Below, in pieces: positions 19,421 through 43,111 of a DNA stretch of 57,338 nt. The DNA is from a virus. Location: positions 1-57,338 of IMG/VR virus record IMGVR_UViG_3300044630_003005; one strand, given 5' to 3'. The notes beneath the pieces are model-generated. The model ran no database searches. It was not told the origin of the DNA and saw only the letters and a program-made list of their open reading frames with translations. Each line of letters begins with the position of its first letter. Positions within the stretch are counted from its first letter, which is position 1. Made by a program: the position numbers and the translations under genes.

Positions 19421-19549
19421 ATGAGAAACTTTATTATAGGCACAGTCTTTGGACTTATACTAGCAACTGTTGGATTCTCCGGCATTGCTCGTATGCTTGA
19501 CAAGGGCGTAGACACAGTTAAAACACACTCACAGGAGATGGCAAAATGA
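19421..19549 (+). CDS. Small membrane protein (42 aa)
   Basis: A 42-residue frame (MRNFIIGTVFGLILA...) with one hydrophobic helix at about 4-22, preceded by AAAGG. It is typical of tiny single-pass proteins conserved in aquatic T4-like phages. Its stop overlaps the next start (ATGA at 19546-19549), so it is coupled to the lipoprotein gene. Confidence 0.75.
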   Translation: MRNFIIGTVFGLILATVGFSGIARMLDKGVDTVKTHSQEMAK

Positions 19550-20307
19550 AAAAGTCGTTGGCATTAACACTAATCGCTACTGCAATTCTTGCAGGATGCA
19601 GTACCACTAAACCCGCAGAGACAAAGATCTCAAGTCCGACACCGGCAGTTAAAGAAGTTCAGGTGTTGCCTGCACCGGGCAAAATTGAAGCTCCGTTGAC
19701 TATCGATGTACCGCCCTGGTACGTTAAGGCTCCTGCTAGCACAGACGAGTATATGTTTATAACTGGTACTGGCCTTAGTTCAGACTTGTCTATGAGTCGG
19801 GCCAAAGCCTTGTTGGATGCTCAACATCAGTTGGCTTCTAAGCTAAACGGTGTTATTGATGCCGCAACTAGACAGCAACGTAAAGACACTGCCGGCACAG
19901 TCAATAGTGATTATACCAGTATAACTATTCGAAAGAATATTATTGAAACTGCTATCACTGGTCACCATTTAGAAGACAGCAAGATTCAAGCAGAGAATCG
20001 CGGATACAGAACATTTGTATTGGTTCGATATCCCGTAGGCGATGCTAATAAATTGTTACGTCAGCAAGAGCAACGAGATTCTAAGAAACAAGACGAAGAC
20101 TCGATGATTGATAAAGAACTCGGTAAGTCCCAATCCAAAGTTGTTTCAGTAGTTGTTCCGGAAGCAAAGCCTGTGGCAATTGAATCTAAAGCTGTTCCAA
20201 TCAGTGAGCTTAAACTAATGGAAGTAGACAACGAAGAATATAAGAAGCGTCGAGCCGAAGCATTACAGAAGCCGGGTGCTGTTGTGGGCAATGTAACATA
20301 TCGTTGA
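19546..20307 (+). CDS. LPP20-like lipoprotein
   Basis: A 253-residue lipoprotein. The lipobox is LAGC (Cys18). A Pro-rich linker (25-55) is followed by a domain with PPWYVKAP...YMFITGTGLSSDLSMSRAKALLDAQHQLASKL (about 55-110), the hallmark of LPP20-type lipoproteins, then a charged coiled tail with many Gln/Glu/Lys. Probably anchored in the outer membrane facing the periplasm. Phage versions occur in aquatic T4-like phages. The role is unknown; envelope remodelling or superinfection control are possible. Confidence 0.82.
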   Translation: MKKSLALTLIATAILAGCSTTKPAETKISSPTPAVKEVQVLPAPGKIEAPLTIDVPPWYVKAPASTDEYMFITGTGLSSDLSMSRAKALLDAQHQLASKLNGVIDAATRQQRKDTAGTVNSDYTSITIRKNIIETAITGHHLEDSKIQAENRGYRTFVLVRYPVGDANKLLRQQEQRDSKKQDEDSMIDKELGKSQSKVVSVVVPEAKPVAIESKAVPISELKLMEVDNEEYKKRRAEALQKPGAVVGNVTYR

Positions 20308-21281: not shown

Positions 21282-21797
21282 ATGATTACAATGAAAGAAT
21301 GGATGGAATTGGTAGGCTATCGCATTACAGAAGGTAGCGACTATATGTGGCAATGCTACGGTTCCGATGCTTATGCACTAGATTCGTGGAACGGGGAGCA
21401 AGATGGTCATAGCTTTACTGTGATCTTTGATACCAAGACTCAAGTGGTTTATGAAGTACAGGCTCACGACTATGTACATGATCGTGCCTATCGTATGATT
21501 AATCCAGACTTTCAAAAAAAGAATCGTAAAGAAGCCAAGAAGAGAGACATTGACAAAGACAATGCCTGGGACGATGTTGACTATGTTGATTTGGACGTAG
21601 ACGACGACTTTATTCAAAAGTGTCTAGCTATTCGAGCAGGCGAAGACTACGATACTCGTGTAAGTGTTCCTATGGAGTTTTCCGATCAAGAACTTCTTAT
21701 CTATATGAAACTGGCACACGAACAAGATATCACTTTTAATCAATTAGTTGAACGAGCCCTGCGTGAAGCACTCGAACGAGAAGGAATTACTGTTTAG
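21282..21797 (+). CDS. Conserved phage protein (171 aa)
   Basis: A 171-residue protein with AAGGA before the ATG. The N-terminal half is an alpha/beta domain (YMWQCYGSDAYALDSWNG...). A very acidic linker (DDVDYVDLDVDDDF, about 97-110) follows. The C-terminal 45 residues (DQELLIYMKLAHEQDITFNQLVERALREALE) look like a ribbon-helix-helix DNA-binding or dimerisation segment. Inference: a small regulator. Its end overlaps the convergent radical-SAM gene by 11 bp. Confidence 0.75.
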   Translation: MITMKEWMELVGYRITEGSDYMWQCYGSDAYALDSWNGEQDGHSFTVIFDTKTQVVYEVQAHDYVHDRAYRMINPDFQKKNRKEAKKRDIDKDNAWDDVDYVDLDVDDDFIQKCLAIRAGEDYDTRVSVPMEFSDQELLIYMKLAHEQDITFNQLVERALREALEREGITV

Positions 21798-22674
21798 TAG
21801 CGTGTATGTCAAAGCCGTTGCGACAGGCATCAGCTTTGCAAATTACAGGCACCTGAACTCCTGTAAATTCTATTCCTAGTTTTCCAATGAGGCCACCTTG
21901 ACCACAGTGGCCTCTTTTTATACGGCCCCAAGCATCAATGATCAGTTGTTCAATGCCTGCCTGACACGTTTGATTTTGAAACTTATTTTTACCTTCCAAA
22001 ATTAAAGTTTGAAAATCTGTAAATTCTTCTTCACCATGATCATTAACATAAATCAAATTTTCGTGTTGGCGTTTTAATTTTATTGTGTGTTCCAGTTTGT
22101 ATTCCATAGGCTGTTTGTTGATAGCAGGATCTTCAAACAGCATCTTTCTATGAACGGATTGATCCGGCCACATTTTTTTTATTTTAGTAATAGTATCTTC
22201 TAGTTCTTGCCAGCGGTCCGGCAACATACTCACTGTTATACTCACGTTTACATTTTTCTTTTTAGCGGCATATAAACAAAGCATAAAATGACTGATAGGT
22301 GTATGTTCTGAATGCACTTCTAGATTGATGCTATCAACTGTATCCAACAGCCGTTGCCATTCTGCAATAGGAATACTGGCATTAGTTCTTATGCATACAC
22401 TACTGTTTTTTGTTTTGATATGTTTTATTAAATCCACAAGCCATGGCCATTGCGTAACTTCGCCTCCTGTAAAATAATAACTACAGGTCTTGCCTAGAGT
22501 TTTGGCAAAATTATTAACTTGATTAACAAATTCCAAACAGTGTTCTATGTTTGGCAAGTCAATGCTACCACTTTTTATAATATCAGGACAGTAACTGCAA
22601 TTGTAATTGCAGTGATTCATTAACCACCAATCAATATAGAGATATTTGCTATCCCTAGTACTGCGGAGTTGCAT
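21787..22674 (-). CDS. Radical SAM enzyme with C-terminal Cys cluster
   Basis: A 295-residue radical SAM protein. CNYNCSYC (22-29) binds the [4Fe-4S]-SAM cluster and TGGEVT (about 69-74) is the SAM-binding GGE motif. The C-terminus (C238...C258...C278...C283, from CQAGIEQLIIDAWGRIKRGHC onward) looks like a SPASM/twitch domain for auxiliary clusters. Substrate unknown; SPASM enzymes often act on peptides or sugars. It is the last gene of the 33389-21787 minus-strand block, with its start directly after the YqgE stop. Confidence 0.9.
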   Translation of the reverse strand: MQLRSTRDSKYLYIDWWLMNHCNYNCSYCPDIIKSGSIDLPNIEHCLEFVNQVNNFAKTLGKTCSYYFTGGEVTQWPWLVDLIKHIKTKNSSVCIRTNASIPIAEWQRLLDTVDSINLEVHSEHTPISHFMLCLYAAKKKNVNVSITVSMLPDRWQELEDTITKIKKMWPDQSVHRKMLFEDPAINKQPMEYKLEHTIKLKRQHENLIYVNDHGEEEFTDFQTLILEGKNKFQNQTCQAGIEQLIIDAWGRIKRGHCGQGGLIGKLGIEFTGVQVPVICKADACRNGFDIHATKQ

Positions 22675-23232
22675 CTAGGCCATCCAACTGTCAGTGGCCT
22701 GTTCTCCGCATAGCTGTGTAGAGTCTATCCACATTTCTTTAGTATTAGTTTCTAAAAGCCAAACTGGGTCAGGTGTTTTTAGCGTTAGCCAACTTTGTTG
22801 TCTGCTCCACGGTGGATCGCCTAGCAGTTCGCCTTCAAGTTGTCCCGGTCCCCAACTGCTCTGTCCAAAGAATATTCTAAAACGCTCTGGGTAATCGTTG
22901 TCGGCTAGATGATGAAACATACCAACATTGCTGGTCACCGACCAATCGGCATTGACCCTGTGAGTCGAGTCCATCTTCCAATTACTGTCGTGTAACATCC
23001 AAACTGTGTTAAGTCCTACTGGGCCTCCCCAATAGAGATTAAAATTTTGCGATAGTTCTATGTTTATTTCTTTAAGGACGCTGTTTATTGAATGGCTTGT
23101 TGGTCGATTCACACAAAGTGCCAACGATCCTTGATTTGTATTACGAGTAACTAATAATACACTTTTGTCGAATCTCGAATCGCTCATATTAGGAGGAGCT
23201 ATTAACAGATCTCCTTTTCCGATTCTATGCAT
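22675..23232 (-). CDS. YqgE/AlgH family protein (UPF0301)
   Basis: A 185-residue UPF0301 member. GDLLIAPPNMSD (7-18), LALCVNRPTSHSIN (about 37-50), LYWGGPVG (about 67-74) and FFGQSSWGPGQLEGEL (about 120-135) are the conserved blocks. AlgH was first noted as a regulator of alginate in Pseudomonas; its biochemical role is unclear. Phage copies occur in aquatic T4-like phages. It may modulate host transcription. Gap to the preceding gene is 5 bp. Confidence 0.92.
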   Translation of the reverse strand: MHRIGKGDLLIAPPNMSDSRFDKSVLLVTRNTNQGSLALCVNRPTSHSINSVLKEINIELSQNFNLYWGGPVGLNTVWMLHDSNWKMDSTHRVNADWSVTSNVGMFHHLADNDYPERFRIFFGQSSWGPGQLEGELLGDPPWSRQQSWLTLKTPDPVWLLETNTKEMWIDSTQLCGEQATDSWMA

Positions 23233-23237
23233 CTAGA

Positions 23238-23480
23238 TCAACTCCAGTCTGGAAGTGGGCCGCCATATTTCTTGCCCTTGATTCTTTTGCCTTTTACTGT
23301 GGTGCGTTCATTGCCAATCTTGTGTGATTTATTACCGTGTCGACCACGATAGCCCTGACTCTTGCAGCTAGCCAGTTGACTGGCACCTAAAGCAGCATTT
23401 GGCTTGCCTGATGTGCAAAGAGCTCGGCTTGCGGGCTCTTCGTCTAATTCTTTATTTTGGATAACTTCAAATATTCGCAT
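23238..23480 (-). CDS. Small basic capsid-targeted-type protein
   Basis: An 80-residue basic protein with the ATG at 23480. The N-terminus MRIFEVIQNKEL is of the MRxFE capsid-targeting type. The body is Lys/Gly/Ser-rich (ALGASQLASCKSQGYRGRHG...KGKRIKGKKYGGPLPDW), a pattern shared by a small T4-like phage family. An AATAAATA box lies 4 bp before the ATG. Inference: a DNA-binding internal head protein. Confidence 0.78.
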   Translation of the reverse strand: MRIFEVIQNKELDEEPASRALCTSGKPNAALGASQLASCKSQGYRGRHGNKSHKIGNERTTVKGKRIKGKKYGGPLPDWS

Positions 23481-23484
23481 CAAG

Positions 23485-23492
23485 TATTTATT
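23485..23492 (-). promoter_or_regulatory. Late-type AATAAATA box, 4 bp before ATG
   Basis: AATAAATA on the minus strand just before the ATG at 23480. The transcript is predicted leaderless or nearly so. Confidence 0.5.
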
Positions 23493-23533
23493 AGGAATTA
23501 AAAGTTTTGTTCCAAAATAAAAATGGTAGTGTT

Positions 23534-23555
23534 GTACCAGCAGAAATGCTGGTAC
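23534..23555 (-). terminator. 9-bp hairpin after the tandem methyltransferase gene
   Basis: GTACCAGCA/TGCTGGTAC with a 4-nt loop (GAAA on the plus strand), between the methyltransferase gene and the MRIFE gene. Downstream on the minus strand is a loose U-rich stretch, so termination is plausible. Confidence 0.5.
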
Positions 23556-23584
23556 TTGAACACATTATTAATTGTAAACTGAGA

Positions 23585-25210
23585 TTAAGCAGTTATTTTG
23601 CCAATAATAGTATATCTAGTGCCTTTTTCATGTTCCGATTCGTCTTCAAACATTACTTCTACATTTAGTGGAAGTTGTGTTTTGAATTCATCTAGGGAAG
23701 TGACACAATTAGTAAGTCCATCTTTGTTAGATGAATTATTTGATTGGAATACAACGTGTGATCCTGTTTTGAATCTCTTCCAAGATTCCCATTCATTCAT
23801 AGGCGGCATGTGTTCGCATATGGTATTAATCGTTAGATCTGCATCTTCGAATCGTTTTGCATTTTTAGTAATTACGTCAGCATCAATAATTTCTATATTA
23901 GAATACTGTTCGAGTACGTTATGTTTTAACGATCTAACTAAAGAATCGTCGCTGTCAAAGCCTGACACTCTTTTTTTGCCTTCAGCTAATGTGGTCATTA
24001 GTTCAACCGTATGTTTACATCCAAACACAACTATCTCAGATTTGTCATCCAAGATAGATAGGCCGTTAATAAATTCCAGCATTTTTGTCTGAGACTGATC
24101 TAGTGTTCCGTTTTCTTTTAAATCATTTGCCATATCAATTTCCTTTTTTTTGATTTTTTGTTGTTCTAACAACTTTTTTTGTTGCCTCAGCTCTTCCTCT
24201 AACTTTCGTTTTTGTTGCCGCTTCAGCTCTTCCTCTAACTTAATCTGTCGTCTTGCTTCTATCTCTGCTTCTTTCTTAAGACGTCTTGCTTCTTCTTCTG
24301 CTTCTTTCTTAAGACGTCTTGCTTCTATCTCTTGTAGCTTGATCTGACGTCTTTCTTCTATCTCTACTGCTTTTGCCCACCACCTTTTTTCTTCTTCTGC
24401 TGCTTTTGCAACACGCCGTTCTATCTCTGCTTCTTTCTTAAGACGTCTTGCTTCTTCTTCTGCTTCTTTCTTAAGACGTCTTGCTTCTATCTCTGCTGCT
24501 TTCTGTAGTTTTGGTAAATCTCTTTCTTGAATAGCCTGGTTTGACCATATCTTGCCTACAAGTGTAAATCTAGTGCCTCGATCGTCAGTTAATTCTTCTT
24601 GATGTAAAACTTCAGCATGTGCTGGCAGTTGTTTTTTAAAATCCTCTATAGTATCAACACAATTAATATGTCCCTGAATGCCATACATATTATTAGATTG
24701 AAATGCAAAATATGCATCGTCACTTACTTTTGACCAACTAGGCCAATCTTTCATTGCGGGCATATGTTCGCACGAAGTATTTATGAACAGCTTGGCTGTG
24801 CCATAATTTTTTCGAAAGCTGGCAAACGCATCTCCTTCGATCAGTTTAATTTTAGAGTTATCCTTCCAAAATTTATTCTTTGCAATATGTATCACTTGTT
24901 TATCAAGATCAATACCGTAGATACTTTTTACTCTCTTGGCCAATTTAGGTATAATAACGCTACCATACCAACAACCAAATATAACCACTTCAGATTCGCT
25001 ATCTAAACATTCCATTTGGTCTATTAGATCTACTAACAGTGATTTGGCTGCAAATTGATTTCTACCAAATGAGTCCTTGATGTCATGTGCTAGCTCTGGA
25101 TTATCTCTCATAGTAGACAGGATGTTTTTTAGTAAAGACAAGTCTACAGAAGCATTATTCTGTAAATGTAAAACATTTCCAACAAACTCTAGGTCTTCAG
25201 TATCGATCAT
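23585..25210 (-). CDS. Tandem methyltransferase-like protein with repeat coiled coil
   Basis: A 541-residue protein in three parts. Residues about 1-225 form a class I methyltransferase-like domain (VVIFGCWYGS, GIDLDKQ, INTSCEHMPAM). Residues about 226-365 form a Glu/Lys/Arg coiled coil built of ARRLKKEAEEE repeats. Residues about 366-541 form a second, related domain (IVVFGCKHTV, GFDSDD, INTICEHMPPM). Each half ends GTR(F/Y)T(L/I)xGKI. The coding DNA of the coil contains a 76-bp perfect direct repeat (24257-24332 and 24419-24494). Either half may methylate a small molecule or glycan. It is coupled to the carbamoyltransferase gene by ATGA. Confidence 0.85.
   Translation of the reverse strand: MIDTEDLEFVGNVLHLQNNASVDLSLLKNILSTMRDNPELAHDIKDSFGRNQFAAKSLLVDLIDQMECLDSESEVVIFGCWYGSVIIPKLAKRVKSIYGIDLDKQVIHIAKNKFWKDNSKIKLIEGDAFASFRKNYGTAKLFINTSCEHMPAMKDWPSWSKVSDDAYFAFQSNNMYGIQGHINCVDTIEDFKKQLPAHAEVLHQEELTDDRGTRFTLVGKIWSNQAIQERDLPKLQKAAEIEARRLKKEAEEEARRLKKEAEIERRVAKAAEEEKRWWAKAVEIEERRQIKLQEIEARRLKKEAEEEARRLKKEAEIEARRQIKLEEELKRQQKRKLEEELRQQKKLLEQQKIKKKEIDMANDLKENGTLDQSQTKMLEFINGLSILDDKSEIVVFGCKHTVELMTTLAEGKKRVSGFDSDDSLVRSLKHNVLEQYSNIEIIDADVITKNAKRFEDADLTINTICEHMPPMNEWESWKRFKTGSHVVFQSNNSSNKDGLTNCVTSLDEFKTQLPLNVEVMFEDESEHEKGTRYTIIGKITA
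24257..24494 (-). repeat. 76-bp perfect direct repeat inside the coiled-coil region
   Basis: Two identical 76-bp copies (24257-24332 and 24419-24494), 162 bp apart start to start, in the same orientation and reading frame. Each contains two shorter internal units. Recombination between them would remove 162 bp (54 codons) and keep the frame. Confidence 0.92.
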
Positions 25211-26718
25211 TTTTTTACTACATAGTCATTTATTACTAACATGTCTAGCCCACATTTTTTAAATGTATTTACAGCATGTTCGGGTGTTTCCACAATAGGC
25301 TCTTGACAGTTAAAGCTGGTGTTGAGCAGCATTGGAATTCTGGTGACTTTATAAAAGGCATTTATCAGATTATAATAATTATGATTAAACTCTTTATTAA
25401 CAGTTTGAATTCTTGCGGTACCGTCTACGTGTGTTACTCCCGGAATCTTATCTGATATCACAGGCATGATCCTCGACATAAACGGGCTAGGTTGATTAGT
25501 ATCAAAGTAGTCTTTGTAATGTTCTTCTAACACACTGGGAGCAAAAGGTCTAAAGTCTTCACGCATTTTAATACGACTATTAATAATAGTTTTGATATCT
25601 GGGTTTCTAGGATCAGCTAAAATACTTCTATTACCTAATGCTCGATTGCCCGACTCACTTTTACCTTGAAACCATCCAACAATATCACCGTTGGCAATGG
25701 CATCGGCTACCTCAACATAGATTTCGTCCATTGGCTTTTGTTGATAGGTCAATCCCTTAAAAATTTCAGGGTTGACAGTATACTCTTTTCCTGCATATAC
25801 ATTGGGTATATGAATGTTTTTATTTAGAACATAGTCGGCATGCATATATGTTCCAATTGATTGTCCCTCATCGCCTGCAGCAGGTGGAACGTGAACATTT
25901 ACATAATGTTTTGTAAATTCTTCGTTCATATATCCATTATAAGCAACTCCTCCAGCAATGCATAGATTATCTGATGTTTTAAGAGGGTATACAAATTTCT
26001 TAACAATTTCAATAGTCACATACTGTAGTGTGAATGCTACATTTTCTTTAGGGATCCGTTTTAGAATTTCTTTTGCATTACCAGGCAGTCTATGATTGGG
26101 AGTTTTCAAATACTCATGAATCATTGTATAGACTTCTTCGTTGTATTCTCCATACCCTACTAGGCCCATTACTTTGCCTGCATCAAGATATCCAAATCCA
26201 AGATCCTGCGCCAGCCTGTTCCACAAGCCGCCTATCGACATTTTTTCAGACAAGTTTGTAATAGTGCCTTGCTTGTCAACAAAAATACAATTAAATTGCC
26301 AGCCCCTACCATCAATTGCTAAAATATCTGATTCAGCGAATCCTGAACTTAGAAATGCATAAGCAGCATGACTTTGATGATGGTCAATATAATAATATTT
26401 TTCAGTGTGCAACTTATCCCATAAGTTAGTTGGGTTAAACGCCAAGAAATCTGTATCCGGCAATGTAGCTTGCAGTAAGTCTAGTACAAATTCCTGCCCT
26501 AGATTAGAAACAGTAAAGGCAAACACATCATCATTGGCTGTGTTAACATAATTGGGTAAGAAGTGTTCATTAAAGAACTCTCTACTATAGGTAGGATCGT
26601 GCGAATTCTTTCGATTGAGATTATGCTTTCTTCTATTATGACGTTCTACTTGATTATGAACTACTCCGTCATAGGTGTTATGATCGTGAATATTCACTGC
26701 AACTGAAAAAATATTCAT
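25207..26718 (-). CDS. Carbamoyltransferase (NodU/TobZ family)
   Basis: A 503-residue carbamoyltransferase. The N-terminal domain has HHQSHAAYAF (113-122) and AIDGRGW (134-140), as in the metal/ATP site of Kae1/HypF-like folds. The C-terminal part has GWFQGKSESGNRALGNRSILADPR (about 361-384) and NTSFNCQEPIVETPEHA (about 466-482), typical of NodU. The family transfers a carbamoyl group from carbamoyl phosphate to hydroxyls of sugars, antibiotics or other acceptors. It overlaps both neighbours (ATGA), within a block of radical SAM, aminotransferase and methyltransferase genes. Confidence 0.95.
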   Translation of the reverse strand: MNIFSVAVNIHDHNTYDGVVHNQVERHNRRKHNLNRKNSHDPTYSREFFNEHFLPNYVNTANDDVFAFTVSNLGQEFVLDLLQATLPDTDFLAFNPTNLWDKLHTEKYYYIDHHQSHAAYAFLSSGFAESDILAIDGRGWQFNCIFVDKQGTITNLSEKMSIGGLWNRLAQDLGFGYLDAGKVMGLVGYGEYNEEVYTMIHEYLKTPNHRLPGNAKEILKRIPKENVAFTLQYVTIEIVKKFVYPLKTSDNLCIAGGVAYNGYMNEEFTKHYVNVHVPPAAGDEGQSIGTYMHADYVLNKNIHIPNVYAGKEYTVNPEIFKGLTYQQKPMDEIYVEVADAIANGDIVGWFQGKSESGNRALGNRSILADPRNPDIKTIINSRIKMREDFRPFAPSVLEEHYKDYFDTNQPSPFMSRIMPVISDKIPGVTHVDGTARIQTVNKEFNHNYYNLINAFYKVTRIPMLLNTSFNCQEPIVETPEHAVNTFKKCGLDMLVINDYVVKK

Positions 26719-27572
26719 TGGTCGGCTACTTGTAATTTTTGCAATTCTTCTTCTTTAAGTATTTCAATAATACGATTTCTTTGAGCAGTTGGTCGCTTTG
26801 GAATAATATCAAGACATTTCTCACAATACTTTTCAAAGTCAAACAGTTTGTAATTCATCATCTTATCAATGTTTTCTTTGGTAACGTCAAACTGTCTTGA
26901 ACCGTTAATAACCTTTCTGCTACAATGGCGAATTTTTTGTATTTCAAAATCAAACACTGGTACTAGCGGAAACTTGGCACACACTTTACGATCGAGCTCA
27001 GGCGCCTTTACCGGTATATGATCTGTGAAAAAGTCAGGTGATCTAGAATTGTACTCTTTAAATTCAGTGTTCTTATGTTTGAGATAGGATAGATCGTGCT
27101 CGTCTTTGTATTTAAAGTAGCCCGGAGTTTCAATAATCAAATTATAGTTGTTTAAATCGTTGGGTTCAAAGAACGGAAAGTTGCCTAATTTTTCAATACG
27201 GTCTTCGTAAAAATCCAACACCAAATGTTCGATGTAGATAATTTCGGGATCTTCCAATACTTCCGGATAAAATTTGCGTATCAGTGAGTTGGACAATACT
27301 TGAATTACAAGATTGGGATGTTTCTTTATTTCGGCAATGACTTCTCTGAGATTCTTAACAAGTCCCGGCTCGCCGCCTAACAGGCAAATGCGTGTCTTAT
27401 AAGGACTTAATCCATCTAAAATAGTTCTTAGAAAATCCATGTCTACATGGAGATTACGCATTTCCAGAGTCCAAGCGGTGCAGTAATGACAGGACTTGTT
27501 ACATGACTTTGTCATATAAAAGTCAACTGTACGATATTCTGATCCTTTTAGGTCAGCTAGTGTCTTGATCAT
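26715..27572 (-). CDS. Radical SAM protein with C-terminal Cys residues
   Basis: A 285-residue radical SAM protein. CNKSCHYC (24-31) and LLGGEPG (about 64-70) are canonical. The C-terminal third has C199, C217, and CEKC near 250, compatible with a SPASM-like auxiliary cluster. The substrate is unknown. It is coupled to the carbamoyltransferase (ATGA) and follows the nitroreductase pair. Alternative: a tRNA- or nucleobase-modifying radical SAM; the Cys set is unlike MiaB or QueE. Confidence 0.9.
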   Translation of the reverse strand: MIKTLADLKGSEYRTVDFYMTKSCNKSCHYCTAWTLEMRNLHVDMDFLRTILDGLSPYKTRICLLGGEPGLVKNLREVIAEIKKHPNLVIQVLSNSLIRKFYPEVLEDPEIIYIEHLVLDFYEDRIEKLGNFPFFEPNDLNNYNLIIETPGYFKYKDEHDLSYLKHKNTEFKEYNSRSPDFFTDHIPVKAPELDRKVCAKFPLVPVFDFEIQKIRHCSRKVINGSRQFDVTKENIDKMMNYKLFDFEKYCEKCLDIIPKRPTAQRNRIIEILKEEELQKLQVADQ

Positions 27573-27602
27573 TTCTTATCCTGAATGTTTCTTAATTAAT
27601 AC

Positions 27603-28277
27603 TTATTTGACAAAGTTTACAATGCGGTTATAATCTGGCCTAAGATCTAGTTTCTCTAGTGCAGTATACTCGTCCCGAAGATATTCTAGTGCTTTGCCAA
27701 CTGTCATAATGAAAACTGGTTTTTGCTCTAAGAATTCAAATCCGGGTTCCTGCCAATGTTCTATAGTTTTAGGAAGGCATAGTGTATAAGATACATCCAA
27801 TTGAGATTCTATACACAGTGCGGCAAATGTATTACAAAACATTCCAATTTCCAAAAGTGCATTGCTGTAGTGTTCCCCTAATTTATTAGGATCTGTTTGT
27901 GTATAATTTCTTCCGAGAGCAATTAGCTCTTGTTGGTGTGCATTTGGTTGATCTTCGACACGTTGCGTGAAGATCAACAAGTAATGGCAAGATACTATGT
28001 TATGAAATCTTGGCATTTTAGGAGAAGGAACAGTAAGATGGTCTTGATCATCTTGATGCTTTAACGCCTTTTCGTATGCTTTATCTTTTAAATCTTGGTG
28101 TTGTGGGCCTAATACGTGTAATTTGTATGGCATGAAATTATTTTTTGACGGAGTTACTTTCCAGGTTCGTTGCAGTAAATCGTCTATAACCGATTGTGGA
28201 ACATCCCGACTTCGGTCGTACGTTTTTACATATTTGTAATGTTTTAAAACGTTGTCTATCATGTTATTCTGTTCCAC
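27603..28277 (-). CDS. Nitroreductase-family flavoprotein
   Basis: A 224-residue nitroreductase-like protein. RDVPQSVIDDLLQRTWKVTPSKNNFMPYKLHVLGP (about 24-58) is the FMN-binding and fold signature. GMFCNTFAALC and TVGKALEYLRDEY occur later. These FMN enzymes reduce nitro groups, quinones or enoates, or oxidise peptide azolines. It shares blocks with the neighbouring 387-aa protein (CTQRVEDQ/FTQRVEDQ, RPDxxRIVxF). The two overlap by 14 bp and probably form a heterodimer, since members are dimeric. Confidence 0.85.
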   Translation of the reverse strand: MEQNNMIDNVLKHYKYVKTYDRSRDVPQSVIDDLLQRTWKVTPSKNNFMPYKLHVLGPQHQDLKDKAYEKALKHQDDQDHLTVPSPKMPRFHNIVSCHYLLIFTQRVEDQPNAHQQELIALGRNYTQTDPNKLGEHYSNALLEIGMFCNTFAALCIESQLDVSYTLCLPKTIEHWQEPGFEFLEQKPVFIMTVGKALEYLRDEYTALEKLDLRPDYNRIVNFVK

Positions 28278-29427
28278 TTATAAATTTTACAATTCTTTCA
28301 AAGTCGGGTCTGTAGTCCATTCCGTGTGTTAAATCTGGGTAAAAATCTCTACGATATTCTTTTCCAAATCCAGCTGATAGGATCAATTGAGGTGGATTTT
28401 CTAAAAAACTAAATTCCGGTTCGGTCCAAAAGTCCATAGTGGTTGGCAAACATCTGGTATGAGAAACATCAATATTGTGTTTTAAACACAAGTTTGAAAA
28501 TGCTTGCGTAAACATACCAATTTCTATCATGGCTAGTCCTTGTGCGCGATTTTTTCTTTTGGGATCTGTTTGCCATTCTCTAGTTGTCTGCTCAAAATTA
28601 AAACCTTTAGACTGCTGTAGTTTATTAAAAGGATTTACTTGATCTTCTACTCTCTGCGTACAAATTAGTATATAAGGAGCAGTTTTATAATTTAGGTACT
28701 GAGGCGGTGACCGATGACTCAAGAAGGCCTTTTCAACTGCCACGGGATCTTTTACATCAACATCCCATTTTGGAAAATTAGTTTCGTATTCTCTAACCAA
28801 CGCTTTATAATAAATCATTTCTTTAATTTTTGTATCACCGGGTCCTAGCACAAATATGTTGTAAGGCATGAATTGTTGTTTGGATGGAGTACTGGACCAC
28901 GCTTCGTATAACGATTGCTTTATTATAAAAGGATCCGGCAACTTTTCAGTGTCGTATTTCATTACATACTGATATTTGTGCATATGACTGTAATTCATAT
29001 ACTTGGGTCCGGTTTTTATAGTTTCGATTAAAATAGATTTTAAATTAACCAGTTCATCTGCTGTTACCTGCCGATTCTGTGGAGTTAATAGAAGATCAAA
29101 CGCCAGCCCGAAAGTCTGTACTTGACCAATTGTTTGACTATCTCGATCGACTAGCATACGCTCCATCATATAATTGTGTACGGCTATCTCCGTTTCGTAG
29201 TTTTGTATTTGTCGTTTATTGTCGAACCAATATTTAGATGCTATATAGGTGATATTTCTTGTGGTTTCAAAAGTCAAATCATCTATGTAGGCATCAAAAA
29301 CAAAATTTAGATCTCTAGTGCATTTGGCAAGACTTCGTGATTTTGGAATTCGATGATTAATTTTCTGCCAACTTATAGTTTCTTTTATAATTAGTGATTT
29401 ATTGTTTTTTAATGTTTGAATGTTCAT
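28264..29427 (-). CDS. Nitroreductase-like protein fused to a virion-type domain
   Basis: A 387-residue protein. Residues about 30-150 resemble a helical domain repeated in T4-like phage virion proteins: KCTRDLNFVFDAYIDDLTFETTRN...ASKYWFDN. Residues about 155-387 form the nitroreductase fold, paralogous to the 224-aa neighbour (TPSKQQFMPYNIFVLGP, CTQRVEDQ). Together the fusion suggests an FMN protein attached to a virion or membrane scaffold. The N-terminal match is from memory, not a search, so treat it as tentative. Inference: product transfer between partners or packaging. Confidence 0.75.
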   Translation of the reverse strand: MNIQTLKNNKSLIIKETISWQKINHRIPKSRSLAKCTRDLNFVFDAYIDDLTFETTRNITYIASKYWFDNKRQIQNYETEIAVHNYMMERMLVDRDSQTIGQVQTFGLAFDLLLTPQNRQVTADELVNLKSILIETIKTGPKYMNYSHMHKYQYVMKYDTEKLPDPFIIKQSLYEAWSSTPSKQQFMPYNIFVLGPGDTKIKEMIYYKALVREYETNFPKWDVDVKDPVAVEKAFLSHRSPPQYLNYKTAPYILICTQRVEDQVNPFNKLQQSKGFNFEQTTREWQTDPKRKNRAQGLAMIEIGMFTQAFSNLCLKHNIDVSHTRCLPTTMDFWTEPEFSFLENPPQLILSAGFGKEYRRDFYPDLTHGMDYRPDFERIVKFISGTE

Positions 29428-29436
29428 ATTATTCCT

Positions 29437-29763
29437 TTAGAAATGTATTCTTAGATCCGTATTTTCTATATGTTTATTAGTAATCTTGCCACTACAATGA
29501 TGCCAACAGGCTTTAGGAGCATGCAGAGGCTCGTTTTTTAGTGTCATCATAAATTTATTCCAATACTCACCTTCGATGATAGTGGCTGGATCAGCGTGAT
29601 TATTTATGTTTAAGCTGGGGTCAAAAAAACCTTCTACAAGGGGATCTGCTTTACGAGCATCTTCGGCATCAAACCAGCAGCATGGAGTAAAATATCCTGC
29701 AGCATTTAGGCATATTTCTTCTCGAGTATTGAGACACTTTGGAACAAGCTCTCTATCATTCAT
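29437..29763 (-). CDS. Stand-alone SPASM-like Cys protein (copy 2)
   Basis: A 108-residue protein from the ATG at 29763 (an upstream ATG at 29781 is inside the radical SAM gene). CLNTREEICLNAAGYFTPCCWFD (about 10-32) and CWHHC near 86-90 form a Cys set like the auxiliary-cluster domain of SPASM proteins. It has no radical SAM core of its own. It overlaps the radical SAM gene at 29756-30379 by 8 bp, so the two probably act as a split enzyme. Paralogue of 32188-32538. Confidence 0.78.
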   Translation of the reverse strand: MNDRELVPKCLNTREEICLNAAGYFTPCCWFDAEDARKADPLVEGFFDPSLNINNHADPATIIEGEYWNKFMMTLKNEPLHAPKACWHHCSGKITNKHIENTDLRIHF

Positions 29764-30379
29764 CGTAAGTCCTCCAATCATATTTTTTATTTATAGGAGC
29801 AAAACCGTCTGGTAATCCTCTTGCACTAAGTTTAAAATAAATTTTTATACCTTTAGATTGTGCCAATTCTCTACATCGTTCAACATCATTCTCATTATAG
29901 CTGAAAACAAGATATTGCCAGTGCGCATCTATTCCTAATTCTTTAGCTAGGCACATCATATTAAACAAATGTACACCATCTTGATTTATTCTATATAAAT
30001 GACTTAGTTCGGGAGGGCCATCAATACCAAAGCTCCAACGTGCATCAGTATTTGCAAGAAATGCTTCGCGCCACCATGTTTCTGGTTTATGCGAAGCAGC
30101 GGTATGTACTTCTGTAGGTACATTGCTATCCTTACAGACTTTTAACATTTCTATAAAGTGTTGTCCAAATATAGGATCAGAATGTTGACCACAGAAATTT
30201 ATACTATTAAAATATTTCAAACATTTTTTTAATTGATCGGGCGTAATGTCGCTTCCGGGTAAGGGCACATTCTGCCCGTACTTAATTTTAAACTTGGTGC
30301 GTTTACAACAAGCACACTGCAAGGTGCATCTTGGACTATTTTCGATGTTTAAACTCTTATGTCTAAAACTTACACTCAT
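29756..30379 (-). CDS. Radical SAM core protein (copy 2)
   Basis: A 207-residue protein with the cluster motif CTLQCACC (CxxxCxxC, about residues 18-25) and a FCGQHSDPIFG stretch. It lacks the SPASM domain, which is encoded next door. It closely resembles the 248-aa protein at 31458-32204, sharing CGQ(H/I)SDPI and WQYxxFxYNE(N/H). It follows the aminotransferase gene by 8 bp. The reaction and substrate are unknown. Confidence 0.85.
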   Translation of the reverse strand: MSVSFRHKSLNIENSPRCTLQCACCKRTKFKIKYGQNVPLPGSDITPDQLKKCLKYFNSINFCGQHSDPIFGQHFIEMLKVCKDSNVPTEVHTAASHKPETWWREAFLANTDARWSFGIDGPPELSHLYRINQDGVHLFNMMCLAKELGIDAHWQYLVFSYNENDVERCRELAQSKGIKIYFKLSARGLPDGFAPINKKYDWRTYDE

Positions 30380-30387
30380 ATTACACT

Positions 30388-31461
30388 CTAAAATTGTTTT
30401 TTAACTGTATTGATTATTGTGGATATCTCGTCATCAGTCAGCCATGCATGAATGGGCAAAGAAATTATTGTGTCAGCTACTAATTTTGAATTTACACAAT
30501 TATCTTTTCTATATTGGTGTGTGTTGTACATGCCATTTTCAGACAAGGGTTTTTCGTAATGCACACTGGCTTTCAAGGCATCTTTTACACGCTTTCTAAC
30601 ATCTTTATTTTGAAATCTAATGGTATATTTATGGTAGTTATGGGACAGCCCTTCTTGACCCTGCTGTGTAAAAACTGGCAAATCTTTAAACGCTTGATTG
30701 TACTGTTGCGCAATTTGTTGACGTCTTGCTTGATTCCTTTCGGCATTTTGCAGTCGAAGATTAATAACTTCAGCGTTAAGCACATACATACGACTGTTAA
30801 ATCCCAGCATCTCAAAATCTTTATCTTTGCCGTGACGCCTAATCTTTTTGACCAACTTTGCTTTGGATTCGTCATCGGTTAGGAAAACACCTCCGCCATT
30901 AATCCCCGAAATCACTTTGTTGCTGTTAAAGCTGTAGACACTACAGTCGCCGATGGTGCCTGCTCGAACATTGTTTAGACTTGCTCCCAAGGCCTGAGCA
31001 GCATCTTCAAAAAACACTAGGCCTTTTTCTTTACAAAACTCTCGAATCTCAGTGGTATCTGTCATATTACCAAAAAGGTGTACATATACAATTGCCTTGG
31101 TCTTTTCGGAATACATTCGTTTGATGCTGTCCAGATTCATGTGATAGCTGTCTAGATCTATTTCACAGAACACAGGTGTAGCACCCACATGACTCACACA
31201 GGCAGCTGAAGTAATCCAACTGAAGTCTGTCACAAGTACCTCGTCACCTGCACCAATGCCATATGCCAATAGTGCAAAGTGCAGTGCATCGGTGGCACTG
31301 GCCACACTGACTGCATACTTGCGACCTACCCGTTTGGCAAAACTTTCTTCCCAGGCTTCGTTGTTTTCGTAGTTGAGTTGCGACATAAATCTGTCGAACA
31401 GGTCTAGATATGCCTGTTTGTTTTCTTGGTACTCTCGGTCCCAGCCGTCATATGATGTCAT
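30388..31461 (-). CDS. DegT/DnrJ/EryC1-type aminotransferase
   Basis: A 357-residue PLP sugar aminotransferase. DEVLVTDFSWITSAACVSHVGATPVF (about 73-98), FFEDAAQALGA (about 149-159) and SFNSNKVISGINGGGV (about 178-193, with the PLP lysine) mark the family. Members transaminate keto-sugars (nucleotide-linked) for LPS, S-layer glycans or antibiotics. It sits between two radical-SAM/SPASM pairs and overlaps the upstream gene by ATGA. The sugar and its activated form are unknown. Confidence 0.93.
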   Translation of the reverse strand: MTSYDGWDREYQENKQAYLDLFDRFMSQLNYENNEAWEESFAKRVGRKYAVSVASATDALHFALLAYGIGAGDEVLVTDFSWITSAACVSHVGATPVFCEIDLDSYHMNLDSIKRMYSEKTKAIVYVHLFGNMTDTTEIREFCKEKGLVFFEDAAQALGASLNNVRAGTIGDCSVYSFNSNKVISGINGGGVFLTDDESKAKLVKKIRRHGKDKDFEMLGFNSRMYVLNAEVINLRLQNAERNQARRQQIAQQYNQAFKDLPVFTQQGQEGLSHNYHKYTIRFQNKDVRKRVKDALKASVHYEKPLSENGMYNTHQYRKDNCVNSKLVADTIISLPIHAWLTDDEISTIINTVKKQF

Positions 31462-32204
31462 AGTGATTCCAATTTTTTATGTGATATCTTGCGCCAAAGA
31501 TCAAGGCTTTTGGATTTATAGCCCCAGTACTCTTTTTTAACTCTTTCTTCAGTGTGTTTCTTATCGGGACTGGTCAAGGTAAAATCCACACTTTTTCTCA
31601 GCAGGGGATTGTCTGATCTGAATCCTCTGTTGGTGTTTATTAACAGTAGACTAAAATCTTCTTGTTTGGCAATTTCTATAGCACGATCTATTTCGTGTTC
31701 ATTGTAGCCAAAAATAATGTATTGCCACACTATGACATGTCCAAGATCTCTACCCTGCTGCATACGCTTCCAAACGTCTTCAAAGTTTGAACCCACACGA
31801 TACAATTCACTCTTTTTGTCAATGCCGTCTACACCAAAGTACCAGGCGTTTTCGCCCACACCATAGCTGTAGGCTTCGTCCCACCAGGCATCACTTTTGC
31901 CACTGCCCACTGTGGCAATCCTAATGGCCTTGCCCTGTCCGTCGCACATTTTCAACAGCTTGAGAAAGTTGGGATGATAGATAGGGTCAGATATTTGTCC
32001 GCAGAAGGTGATACCATTGTCATAGTAATCCAGTATCTTTTTAAAATTGTGTTCTTCCAGATCAAAGGATCTACGTATCTGCTCTTGGCTGGAAGTTTTT
32101 TGACGTATGCACTGGGGACACTTGAACACGCACCTGTGTGACGTATCTATGTTAGGTCGCACAAATCGTTGATACTTGACATAATCATCAGTTATTCTTG
32201 CCAT
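31458..32204 (-). CDS. Radical SAM core protein (copy 1)
   Basis: A 248-residue protein with CVFKCPQC (about 25-32) and a FCGQISDPIYHPNFLKLLKMC stretch. It is paralogous to the 207-aa protein at 29756-30379. It overlaps the SPASM-like gene upstream (by 17 bp) and the aminotransferase downstream (ATGA). Inference: with the separate SPASM-like protein it makes a split radical SAM enzyme. Confidence 0.87.
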   Translation of the reverse strand: MARITDDYVKYQRFVRPNIDTSHRCVFKCPQCIRQKTSSQEQIRRSFDLEEHNFKKILDYYDNGITFCGQISDPIYHPNFLKLLKMCDGQGKAIRIATVGSGKSDAWWDEAYSYGVGENAWYFGVDGIDKKSELYRVGSNFEDVWKRMQQGRDLGHVIVWQYIIFGYNEHEIDRAIEIAKQEDFSLLLINTNRGFRSDNPLLRKSVDFTLTSPDKKHTEERVKKEYWGYKSKSLDLWRKISHKKLESL

Positions 32205-32538
32205 TGGCCTGCTCCTTTACTTCAATTCGTTCCTCGTCTCTAACTGCGTTTTTATCTATGTCTACCCCGCACTTCTTTTTGCACATATATGAAGCATTTT
32301 CAGGATCCGTTAGCAGTGTCTGAAAAAAGTTTTCCCACTGATCAGATGCAAAAATATCTTCCAATCTGTCATTACGAGATAACAGTAGTTCCTCATCTTT
32401 TAGGCCGCACTGTTTGACATAGCGATAGACCGGGGGATCGTCCAGCCAGCAACAGGGCAGCATGTATCCGTCTGATGTGTATGCAGCCCCTTTGTTATCT
32501 GTGGATCTATAGTTGAGGCATTTGGGTTTTATTTTCAT
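32188..32538 (-). CDS. Stand-alone SPASM-like Cys protein (copy 1)
   Basis: A 116-residue protein with CLNYRSTDNKGAAYTSDGYMLPCCW (7-31) and YMCKKKC (about 84-90). It is paralogous to 29437-29763 and shares PKCLN and PCCW. It overlaps the glycosyltransferase-like gene (ATGA) and the radical SAM gene, so it is translated with them. No radical SAM motif is present. Confidence 0.8.
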   Translation of the reverse strand: MKIKPKCLNYRSTDNKGAAYTSDGYMLPCCWLDDPPVYRYVKQCGLKDEELLLSRNDRLEDIFASDQWENFFQTLLTDPENASYMCKKKCGVDIDKNAVRDEERIEVKEQANGKNN

Positions 32539-33389
32539 TGTAATTGCTCTAGGGCAGCCAGTATTGGTGCTGCATCGGGTTCTGCTATATCACGTGTGTA
32601 GTACACACTACCCCCGTCATGTATGGCAGGGTCTCTTAGGTAAATCAAGCCCTTGTTGAAATATTTACATTCTTGCACAATTCTAGGGGCTGGGTCAAAT
32701 GTTTCTTTCACATACACATAGGTATCAAAGATACCCAGAAGGTTTTCTACGGGTGCAAATATGTTGTTGTAGTTGATGTTAACATATTTTTCACGATAGG
32801 TCAATATGCCATGGTCAGGGTACTGATCAAGAAACTTTTCTGCTGTGGCATAGTATTGCTCATTAGAGCCCTGGAATAGATATCGAAATTGAACACTGTC
32901 CGTGTGGGGTTTGTACAGTGCAAAATTGATGCGCTTTTCAAAATGCAGCCCCTGACCCTCAGGGTAGACTTCTCGATCACATAGATCCACTACCTGCTGG
33001 GGCCTGTAAAACGCCAGGGCCTGTGGGTAGAGTTCAGGGTGGTTTTCAGAATACACACTGATCACCCTTGAGCCAAATACTGATCGCAGGGTCTCCTGCT
33101 GGGTGCTGTTATAGTCTTTGAAGGCCTGCCAGCTGAGTGTGATCATGCTGCGACCCATAACCAGGGTGACATCATTGGGATTGGGCTGATACTGATCAAA
33201 CACCACGTGTTCAAATAGGGTATACTTGTTGGTAATTGCAGTGCGATAGCTAGAGGGAGTGTAGCGGCGATGGCTGACAATGATCAACCTAGCTGATATA
33301 CCCAAACTATTCAAGAGACAGCAGTATTCGTAGCTGTAGTATAACAAGCCGTCAATGGGTTTGCTGGTGCATATGATGTTAACAGTCAT
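32535..33389 (-). CDS. Glycosyltransferase-like protein
   Basis: A 284-residue protein. A Rossmann-like N-terminus (NIICTSKPIDGLLYYSYEYCCLL) and a C-terminal domain ending LRDPAIHDGGSVYYTRD, with a Pro-rich VxETFDPAPRIVQE segment before it, recall GT-B glycosyltransferases of T4-like phages. There is no signal peptide. It is the first gene of the biosynthetic block, with a late-type box 4 bp before the ATG. It could glycosylate DNA bases, a small molecule or virion proteins. Assignment is moderate. Confidence 0.7.
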   Translation of the reverse strand: MTVNIICTSKPIDGLLYYSYEYCCLLNSLGISARLIIVSHRRYTPSSYRTAITNKYTLFEHVVFDQYQPNPNDVTLVMGRSMITLSWQAFKDYNSTQQETLRSVFGSRVISVYSENHPELYPQALAFYRPQQVVDLCDREVYPEGQGLHFEKRINFALYKPHTDSVQFRYLFQGSNEQYYATAEKFLDQYPDHGILTYREKYVNINYNNIFAPVENLLGIFDTYVYVKETFDPAPRIVQECKYFNKGLIYLRDPAIHDGGSVYYTRDIAEPDAAPILAALEQLQ

Positions 33390-34253: not shown

Positions 34254-34481
34254 TTGTCACAGAATCACATTAAGGCCATAGCAGATCACATACAGGGCAC
34301 TGTCTCAGTGCTAAATCCACACGGTGATACCAGACTTAATACCTTATATACACAGGGATTCATACTGGGACATCTGGCATCAATCTTCTCAAACGATGCC
34401 ATACTCTACCGAGAGTTCCTGGAACACTGTGAACATCTTGCTCAAAAACAACACAAAAAGATTGACACGCACCGTAAATGA
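34254..34481 (+). CDS. Small hypothetical protein (75 aa, TTG start)
   Basis: The frame starts with TTG at 34254, 5 bp after AGGAGCG, the leader typical of the early arm. It encodes MSQNHIKAIADHIQGTV... Its 3' part overlaps the promoter at 34462-34490. It is helical and basic, with no recognised family. First gene of the plus-strand arm. Confidence 0.65.
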   Translation: MSQNHIKAIADHIQGTVSVLNPHGDTRLNTLYTQGFILGHLASIFSNDAILYREFLEHCEHLAQKQHKKIDTHRK

Positions 34482-34490
34482 TCATATAAT
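34462..34490 (+). promoter_or_regulatory. Consensus sigma70 promoter
   Basis: TTGACA, 17 bp, TATAAT inside the 3' end of the previous gene; drives 34533 and possibly the tRNAs. Confidence 0.85.
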
Positions 34491-34787: not shown

Positions 34788-34865
<78 letters not shown>

Positions 34866-34869
34866 ACAA

Positions 34870-34955
34870 GCTCGGATGGTGAAATAGGTAGACACAAGAG
34901 ACTTAAAATCTCTCGCTGTAATGGCGTCCCGGTTCGATTCCGGGTCCGAGCACCA
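34870..34955 (+). tRNA. tRNA-Leu (UAA)
   Basis: Acceptor GCTCGGA/TCCGAGC, anticodon loop CTTAAAA (UAA) and a long type II variable arm. CCA encoded. The phage AT-rich Leu codon UUA would be served. Confidence 0.95.
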
Positions 34956-34959
34956 CGTT

Positions 34960-35036
34960 CAGACAGTAGCTCAGTTGGATAGAGCAACGCCCTTCTAAGG
35001 CGTCGGTCGGGGGTTCGAATCCCTCCTGTCTGGCCA
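34960..35036 (+). tRNA. tRNA-Arg (UCU)
   Basis: Acceptor CAGACAG/CTGTCTG, anticodon loop CTTCTAA (UCU), T-loop TTCGAAT and encoded CCA. Would read AGA/AGG codons. Confidence 0.94.
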
Positions 35037-41902: not shown

Positions 41903-43111
41903 ATGGACCCGATCATCGATAAACTAACTACTGCTAGAGTAGGCCTACTGCTCAAAGCACCCTTCTTCGGCAATATGGCAACTCGTATGCAATTGATCGA
42001 AGCAGACGACTGGTGCCCGACTGCGGCTACTAATGGTCGCAATTTCTATTACAATACCAAGTTCGTGCAGAAGCTCTCAGTCAAGAAGCTGGAGTTCCTA
42101 TTCGGACACGAGATCTGCCATTGCGTGTTTGATCACTTTGGTCGTGTAGGTAGCAGAGATCGTATGCTGTCTAACATCGCACAAGACTACGCTGTCAACC
42201 AGATACTGGTAGACGAACGCATTGGTGAGAAGATTACAGAAGTTAAGATCTGCTACGATGCCAAGTACCGCGGTATGGCTTGGGAAGAGATCTACGACGA
42301 GCTCTGGGAAAAAGCAGAAAAGATCTCTTTGCCTGACCTGCTCAAGCAATTGGGCGACTTGTTGGACGAGCACATCAACGAAGATGGTTCGGGCCCAGGC
42401 AAAGAAGGTGATGGAGACAAGCAGGGCAAAGGTATGCCCACTATGACTAAAGAAGAAGCACAACAGATCCGCGATGAGATCAAAGAAGCCATGATCCAAA
42501 GTGCCGCGGCAGCAGGTGCAGGCAAGACTCCTATGGGTATCCAGCGCCTGATCAAAGATATGACTGAACCCAAGATTAGCTGGCGCGATCTTGTGCGTCA
42601 AGAGATCCAAAGCATCATCCGCAATGACTACACATTCACTCGCCCAAGCCGTAAGGGACAGATGTCAGGTGCTATCCTGCCTGGTATGAAAGAAGCAACT
42701 ACCATTGACGTAGGCATCTGCATTGATATGTCGGGCTCCATTGGTGAAGAGGATGCAACTGTATTCCTTTCAGAAGTCAAAGGCATTATGGATCAATACG
42801 AGGACTTCAAGATCAACCTGTGGTGCTTTGATACTGCTATCTATAATCACAAAGAGATCTCGCAAGACAACAGTCACGATCTTGAAGAGTATGAGCCACA
42901 AGGTGGCGGTGGTACTGACTTTGAAGTCAACTGGGACTTTATGAAAGATAATGGCATTGCTCCCAAGAAGTTCATTATGTTCACAGACGGCTACCCTTGC
43001 GGCAGTTGGGGCGATGAGGATTATTGCGACACTATCTTTATTGTCAAAGGCAATACAGAAGCAGAAGCACCTTTTGGCCAGACTGTTATCTACGAGAAAG
43101 AAGCGGCATAA
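41903..43111 (+). CDS. VWA-domain metallopeptidase-like protein
   Basis: A 402-residue protein. The N-terminal half has HEICH (69-73), an HExxH-like zinc site as in VWA-like metallopeptidases (DUF2201 type). Residues about 160-210 are a low-complexity linker. The C-terminal VWA domain has the MIDAS motif DMSGS (275-279), then GGGGTDFEVNW and MFTDGYP. The partner MoxR ATPase is directly upstream. The pair could assemble or dismantle a host complex during early infection. Confidence 0.9.
   Translation: MDPIIDKLTTARVGLLLKAPFFGNMATRMQLIEADDWCPTAATNGRNFYYNTKFVQKLSVKKLEFLFGHEICHCVFDHFGRVGSRDRMLSNIAQDYAVNQILVDERIGEKITEVKICYDAKYRGMAWEEIYDELWEKAEKISLPDLLKQLGDLLDEHINEDGSGPGKEGDGDKQGKGMPTMTKEEAQQIRDEIKEAMIQSAAAAGAGKTPMGIQRLIKDMTEPKISWRDLVRQEIQSIIRNDYTFTRPSRKGQMSGAILPGMKEATTIDVGICIDMSGSIGEEDATVFLSEVKGIMDQYEDFKINLWCFDTAIYNHKEISQDNSHDLEEYEPQGGGGTDFEVNWDFMKDNGIAPKKFIMFTDGYPCGSWGDEDYCDTIFIVKGNTEAEAPFGQTVIYEKEAA

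Follow-up and report, generated by a model that had tools for sequence, protein, structure and literature searches.

The 57,338-base record of an uncultured virus analysed here over its full length (IMG/VR record IMGVR_UViG_3300044630_003005, hereafter the window) carries at positions 21787-33389 a series of 14 tightly packed open reading frames (ORFs), all on the minus strand and named A to N in order of transcription. Genes A-K are a modular cassette common to many uncultured viruses and a well-supported unit. All 14 ORFs had been listed in an earlier note, made by a model from the letters alone, and all are present in that order. Overlaps of 4 base pairs (bp) occur at four junctions (A/B, C/D, I/J and J/K), and the remaining junctions of A-N range from -26 to +30 bp, except for 104 bp before L. 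Within A-K, the intergenic gaps do not exceed 30 bp, and the E/F overlap is 26 bp. The features are as follows.

32535-33389, minus strand: A, glycosyltransferase (GT), predicted GT-B fold, GT4-like (AlphaFold model and structure alignment)
32188-32538, minus strand: B, SPASM/twitch-like protein without a radical S-adenosylmethionine (SAM) core (sub-threshold PF13186, invariant Cys)
31458-32204, minus strand: C, radical SAM core, presumed partner of B (PF04055, CxxxCxxC)
30388-31461, minus strand: D, DegT/DnrJ/EryC1/StrS aminotransferase (PF01041, kept Lys182)
29756-30379, minus strand: E, second radical SAM core, presumed partner of F (phrog_21308, CxxxCxxC)
29437-29781, minus strand: F, second SPASM/twitch-like protein (B family member, invariant Cys)
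28264-29427, minus strand: G, nitroreductase-like protein with an N-terminal domain related to tail/structural proteins (clusters with H; hhalign)
27603-28277, minus strand: H, nitroreductase-like protein (sub-threshold PF00881)
26715-27572, minus strand: I, twitch-type radical SAM protein (PF04055, four C-terminal Cys, predicted fold)
25207-26718, minus strand: J, O-carbamoyltransferase of NodU/TobZ type (Pfam, phrog_1601, PDB profiles, motifs)
23585-25210, minus strand: K, tandem methyltransferase with a charged linker between the copies (PF13649; second copy by eye)
23238-23483, minus strand: L, small basic protein outside the conserved cassette (no family match)
22675-23232, minus strand: M, YqgE/AlgH (DUF179) protein outside the conserved cassette (PF02622)
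21787-22674, minus strand: N, fourth radical SAM protein, mostly absent elsewhere (PF04055)

Recurrence of the cassette in other viruses

Relatives were collected by IMG/VR scans anchored on J (the best 80 of 218) and on A (the best 80 of 246), and the two sets share contigs. The 80 J-anchored loci, the window and Pelagibacter phage Mosig make up 82 sequences, which fall into 55 non-redundant groups when the J genes are clustered at 95% DNA identity. Searches with the window proteins, in which the paralogues B/F, C/E and G/H cross-match, detect I and a methyltransferase in 71 J-anchored loci each, D in 63, G and H in 54 each, A in 52, C and E in 51 each, B in 44 and F in 37; N is found in 4, and L and M in 1 each. 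The A-anchored loci contain D in 71 cases, I in 61, J in 58 and N in 10. At least six of the eight core families are present in 57 of the 80 J-anchored and 55 of the 80 A-anchored loci.

The families also lie close together. All eight occur within 15 kb in 24 of the 55 groups (23 without the window's own group) and at least six do so in 41. The 14 groups with fewer than six core families include 12 without any stretch of at least 17 kb. The earlier note had proposed a search for other genomes holding at least eight of its genes within 15 kb; nine core-family genes are found in Mosig, and at least eight within that span in 32 of the 55 non-redundant groups, the window's group included. The same combination occurs in other viruses and is not peculiar to this phage, and the idea of a functional unit holds for A-K. 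It fails for A-N as a whole, since the last three genes are mostly local: L and M recur solely in the identical contig L003, and the N family is seen in L003, L044, L045 and L046 of the J-anchored set. L, M and N were rejected as cassette members because they are not conserved.

The usual gene order is A, B-C, D, a variable middle, I, J and the methyltransferase, and both order and content vary, with members that can be absent. The variable middle contains extra radical SAM/SPASM pairs, nitroreductase-like genes, PP-loop (QueC-like) genes of family f5, which occur in 23 of the 82 sequences, radical SAM genes of family f2 and SGNH genes. Four f2 members exceed 700 amino acids (aa), and the one tested (744 aa) combines PP-loop-like and radical SAM parts. 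The A family is present in 53 of the 82 sequences. Four loci (L062, L066, L067 and L068) encode, according to their translations, a fusion of J with a radical SAM-like half, a link between carbamoylation and radical chemistry. Another four loci (L014-L017, on contigs of up to 300 kb) carry a J gene 73% identical to that of the window in a quite different neighbourhood common to the four; NAD-synthase-like and radical-SAM-like genes can be seen by eye in L015.

In the collections searched, A and I are almost confined to viruses. Among 50,697 phage records, A or I is found in Mosig alone (E up to 1e-5). J is found in 138 phage records, of which 117 are named Synechococcus phage, cyanophage or Prochlorococcus phage, and its identity at the best place is below 60% in all 138. 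A search of GTDB genome contigs for I with two peptide patterns returned three loci, all with the cassette and filed in bacterial metagenome-assembled genomes (MAGs); two of them also hold phage structural genes, and the third, of 7.6 kb, is a fragment bearing nothing but cassette genes. The scan of cellular genomes for A covered one order, that of the Pelagibacter MAG, and found it in 1 of 297 genomes, on that same cassette contig. I matched the same MAG contig across these 297 genomes, together with four fragmentary matches to 44 positions. A host origin of the core was rejected, given that the GTDB occurrences of I are three cassette loci and that the scans for A and I within one order lead to the same MAG contig.

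Two virus lineages carry the cassette, a pelagiphage type (Mosig and relatives) and another that includes the present phage. The window gene at 41903-43108 has its best phage matches in jumbo phages such as Phosso and PA5oct; it is common to many contigs of the second lineage and is found in 16 of the 29 records searched, the window included. The 'jumbo' label of this lineage comes from such neighbour genes and is not a taxonomic one. Distant T4-type capsid genes match in 7 of the 29 records, with no match in the window. In a tree of I built from 51 distinct full-length rows (L003 dropped), all 14 pelagiphage-type rows fall on one side of a branch with support 100/98. A recent jump of the cassette between the lineages was rejected because this tree separates the pelagiphage-type loci from the rest.

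Enzyme families and predicted folds

D and J are secure members of their families, as their labels in the earlier note had it. D matches PF01041 at 294.9 bits (E 1.2e-87), keeps the lysine of the pyridoxal phosphate site (Lys182) in 61 of 61 members and finds its best PDB profile match in the glutamine--scyllo-inositol transaminase 7b0d (1.5e-60). J matches phrog_1601 (1.1e-108) and exceeds the cut-offs of PF02543 (78.3 bits) and PF16861 (222 bits), with its C-terminus family at E 4.7e-66 and PDB matches to GdmN (7.6e-54) and TobZ (4.5e-44). The motifs DHHxxH, GDEG, RPFAP and LNTSFN are each present in 82 of 82 members, and a fifth motif in 80 of 82. M, outside the cassette, likewise bears out its YqgE label (DUF179, E 2.5e-31).

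The label of A as glycosyltransferase-like finds no relevant Pfam match, and no glycosyltransferase model matches in Pfam or PHROGs (E up to 1) or in NCBIfam (0.1). The predicted structure upholds it. The AlphaFold model (mean predicted local distance difference test, pLDDT, 91.4) is that of a GT4-like glycosyltransferase with a GT-B fold, whose best VIA match is PimA (2gej; Z 15.8, root-mean-square deviation (rmsd) 4.0, 251 aligned residues) among 409 chains at Z of at least 8. J, D and A thus all resemble enzymes acting on sugars or cyclitols. In K, the first methyltransferase copy matches PF13649 (4e-8), and the second is seen by eye in the translation. This second copy has, again by eye, a changed glycine-rich motif. 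It may be inactive. A single-copy methyltransferase family, f0, separate from K, is present in 67 of the 82 sequences.

The motif CxxxCxxC occurs in C, E, I and N, in line with the count of four radical SAM proteins made from the letters. PF04055 is above the cut-off (29.5 bits for C) in C (30.6 bits), I (31.9 bits) and N (31.3 bits); E is below it but matches phrog_21308 (1.8e-7). In a PF04055 scan of the whole record, I and N are the only entries. C also has a weak match to the twitch radical SAM model NF033640 (22.9 bits against 170). B and F had been called SPASM-like. This label is sub-threshold for B, and F has no family match in Pfam, PHROGs or NCBIfam; five Cys are nevertheless invariant in 61 of 61 members of the B/F family, which suggests an iron-sulfur (Fe-S) protein only. 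A gene of the B/F family directly precedes or follows 52 of the 63 C/E-family genes. B and F are accordingly described as SPASM-like proteins encoded apart from the radical SAM cores C and E, with B-C and E-F as presumed pairs. No paper on stand-alone SPASM proteins was listed by the one search made of the open literature library.

I is predicted to be a twitch-type radical SAM protein near BtrN, tied with SPASM enzymes, and to have a putative oxidation activity. Its model (pLDDT 88.4) has its best VIA match in BtrN with substrate (4m7t; Z 14.5, rmsd 3.7, 210 aligned residues, 15% identity), with SuiB, BlsE and anSME within one Z unit. Four C-terminal Cys are kept in 69 of 69 members longer than 250 aa. 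In the available part of PMC9012708, the auxiliary cluster of BtrN is ligated by four Cys and that of MoaA by three, so that I resembles BtrN in this count. Matches to viperin models were also seen for I and N (PADLOC pVip, I at E 1.6e-11 and 42 bits, N at 7.2e-12 and 43 bits; a viperin-like PDB match for the I profile at E 9e-5). A viperin-like identity was rejected for both, as these matches are confined to the core domain and the scores against NF038283 (32 bits for I, 40 for N) are far below the cut-off of 180 bits.

The nitroreductase labels of G and H are weak: H is sub-threshold for PF00881 and G has no Pfam match, and the two form one family by clustering, linked through the C-terminal half of G. 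When compared by hhalign, the N-terminal 94 aa of G match two repeats within a structural protein from a cyanophage (probability 95.5, E 1.6e-8, two sequences on each side). G further matches tail-fibre phrogs at E 0.018 and 0.032. In tblastn (E up to 1), the domain finds four records, the best at 0.2 and not significant alone, which are annotated as structural protein, virion structural protein, tail fiber protein and large exoprotein. In L004, the domain is N-terminal on one such protein and C-terminal on the next. The domain hints that G contacts tail proteins, with few sequences behind the comparison.

Genes around the cassette

Tail and structural neighbours were counted in 47 loci, after dropping 8 of the 55 groups, in which at most one of A, B/F, C/E, D and I was present, and the independently supported families f14, f16, f29 and f32 were used. 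Such genes are present in 20 of the 47 non-redundant loci and in 15 of the 30 loci with at least 17 kb. By type, they occur in 8 of 15 pelagiphage-type loci, 12 of 25 of the other type and none of 7 unassigned loci, the window among these. The two lineages have different tail genes beside the cassette. The Mosig cassette, at 61-71 kb, has tail fibre genes on one side (from 46.8 kb) and VrlC on the other (74.6-80.8 kb). Every one of the 15 pelagiphage-type loci has a GT8-like (sub-threshold) or phage glycosyltransferase family next to the cassette. Families f12, f13 and f26 were unsupported as tail genes and left out of the count, and the neighbour families f1, f6 and f8 were dropped as glycosyltransferases since they match no named family.

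In the window, tRNA genes (Met, Leu, Arg) lie at 34788-35036 on the plus strand, just past the cassette start, and a perfect -35/-10 consensus is located beside this three-tRNA group at 34462-34490 (plus). A promoter/terminator scan gave 56 promoter-like sites against 42.8 (standard deviation 6.0) in shuffled sequence and 10 terminator-like sites against 9.4, and was not used. On the plus strand, the window also encodes a tryptophan halogenase cut by the window end (56476-57338, PF04820 1.5e-73), a class I/II aminotransferase with barely any phage-family match (10449-11678, PF00155 1.1e-60; phrog_2736 E 0.032) and a lipoprotein-like gene with a sub-threshold LPP20 match (E 0.0024) and, by eye, a lipobox-like start (19546-20307).

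Proposed function and related systems

The gene set, its motifs, the predicted folds of A and I, the conservation and the near-absence from cellular genomes are established. The families of A, D, I, J and the methyltransferase suggest oxidation, transamination, carbamoylation, methylation and transfer. We give an even chance to the proposal that A-K is a virus-specific modular cassette which makes or tailors an unusual sugar that is attached to something relevant to host recognition; the individual reactions and their sequence, as well as the sugar and the acceptor, are what we infer here. In this scheme, I would act like BtrN and convert a hydroxyl into a ketone on a sugar or cyclitol derivative that the host supplies, and D would aminate that ketone. 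The split pairs B-C and E-F and the nitroreductase-like G and H would introduce further redox changes, varying between phages. Carbamoylation would be due to J and methylation to K, and A would transfer the product in the cytoplasm to a tail protein before assembly, or to a host envelope glycan. The highest 19-residue hydropathy among the cassette proteins is 1.36, so these proteins should lack membrane segments and would encounter the acceptor inside the cell. The product had been suggested to be a small molecule, a glycan or a modified base; a modified sugar or glycan fits best, and for the last no base-modifying enzyme was seen among the genes that could be viewed.

A bolder version, which we consider unlikely, would have a virus-only carbamoylated and methylated aminosugar made by radical chemistry and loaded on the phage's own tail proteins in both lineages, with separate auxiliary Fe-S proteins that work in trans and a flavoenzyme that docks through a tail-protein domain. 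If true, the virion would bear a glycan produced by viruses alone.

Several points weigh against the sugar-tailoring proposal. No tail gene was recognised beside the window cassette, and half of the long loci (at least 17 kb) show none. A-K contains neither a nucleotide-sugar dehydratase nor a cyclitol synthase, and just 7 of 15 pelagiphage-type loci and 1 of 25 others have an epimerase nearby. Searches of L089, L149, L150 and L158 turned up neither D nor I, so no single route fits all. Two family labels fall short of their cut-offs: the SPASM label of B (PF13186, E 0.0097, 16.6 bits against 21.5) and the nitroreductase label of H (PF00881, 20.4 bits against 23.5; best PDB profile match E 0.09). 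For I, Foldseek places a sactipeptide enzyme first and BtrN third, and the structural matches include the peptide-modifying SuiB, anSME and CteB.

The alternative that survives best, possible though clearly less probable, is that the O-chain or another envelope glycan of the host is altered during infection, for example to keep out rival phages, while the virion itself carries no product. It agrees with the glycosyltransferases of the pelagimyophage host recognition cluster, for which O-antigen change is proposed in the available part of PMC7029224, with the Mosig annotations, which include UDP-2,3-diacylglucosamine hydrolase, glycosyltransferases and a sulfotransferase, and with the GT-type neighbour in all 15 pelagiphage-type loci and the epimerase in 7 of them. 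However, the cassette has no flippase, polymerase or other membrane protein, and the tail-protein-like domain of G would be left without a role.

Modification of proteins or peptides is rather improbable. Here the radical SAM/SPASM pairs would modify side chains of phage proteins, in the manner of ribosomally synthesised and post-translationally modified peptides or by crosslinking of tail proteins, and the sugar enzymes would be secondary. The SPASM-like partners, the presence of SuiB, anSME, EpeE and CteB among the structural matches of I and the tail-related domain on G all speak for it. It is opposed by the lack of a conserved small precursor gene, as the gaps in A-K do not exceed 30 bp and L occurs only in the window and L003. 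Enzymes of the J and D types, moreover, are not known to have a usual role on peptides.

A role in DNA or nucleotide modification, with A glycosylating phage DNA like T4 AGT or the radical SAM enzymes making a nucleotide analogue, is very unlikely. T4 AGT and A have a common fold, viperin models match the core regions of I and N, and PP-loop (QueC-like) genes accompany some cassettes; yet AGT is just one among many GT-B matches of A, the viperin scores fall far short of the NCBIfam cut-off, and the annotations of Mosig, over all but about 50.0-54.1 kb of a genome estimated to be 75.7% complete, show a flavin-dependent thymidylate synthase and no base hydroxymethylase. The idea that unrelated morons accumulated by chance, without a shared function, has a negligible probability; the varying order and content and the missing members might be cited for it, but it is already contradicted by the 41 of 55 groups with at least six of the eight families within 15 kb and by the presence of the cassette, with fusion proteins, in two lineages that the I tree separates.

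One close counterpart of the proposed sugar-tailoring cassette is that of Mosig EXVC030M (MT647606, 60990-71305), whose host is HTCC1062 and whose published culture also contained another phage. As in the window, A, a radical SAM/SPASM pair, D, I, J and methyltransferase and nitroreductase-like genes form one block. Unlike the window, Mosig has a single methyltransferase instead of the tandem K, one radical SAM/SPASM pair, and extra SGNH and glycosyltransferase-type genes. Its cassette genes are annotated as molybdenum cofactor enzymes or hypothetical and are not discussed in the genome announcement (PMC7892664). 'Radical SAM' cassettes are mentioned in passing, without gene content or function, in the available part of a paper on the pelagimyophage host recognition cluster (PMC7029224). 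They share radical SAM genes with the present cassette and are inserted in the tail-fibre region of SAR11 myophages, whereas the present phage belongs to another lineage. Apart from this passing mention in the part of PMC7029224 available, no published description of the gene set was found in the literature searched. The carriers comprise at least two kinds of phages, one of which infects abundant ocean bacteria; with a cultured SAR11 strain as the host of one carrier, a direct search for the product is feasible.

Campylobacter phage CP220 contains an analogous but different cassette at 70.7-79.3 kb (L167, 8691-17274), flanked by genes for a baseplate lysozyme and a tail fibre, with five annotated radical SAM genes and two genes annotated with sugar-transferase domains. 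Unlike the window, it has an amidinotransferase-like gene in place of the carbamoyltransferase, and no DegT gene is annotated. Homology of A to CP220 hypothetical proteins was rejected, as the A profile has no match to the three tested (gp082, gp085 and gp100). Pfam returned nothing for the one CP220 sugar-transferase gene tested, and the CP20 proteins matched to A by Foldseek did not turn up in the stretch of CP20 inspected. J is a member of the cyanophage Nol-like carbamoyltransferases (phrog_1601), whose cyanophage copies are 31-41% identical among the matches listed, and no cyanophage record has I or A (E up to 1e-5).

The split radical SAM/SPASM pairs offer a test case for an auxiliary Fe-S domain working in trans. 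Phage glycan genes are mostly bacterial-borrowed in appearance. Core parts of this cassette, A and I, are nearly restricted to viruses in the collections searched, yet the cassette combines enzyme types of antibiotic sugars. With butirosin and aminoglycoside tailoring (BtrN, inosose aminotransferase, TobZ), A-K shares the twitch radical SAM fold, the DegT aminotransferase and the O-carbamoyltransferase; it differs from that tailoring in having no cyclitol synthase, exporter or resistance gene, and its enzymes are distant.

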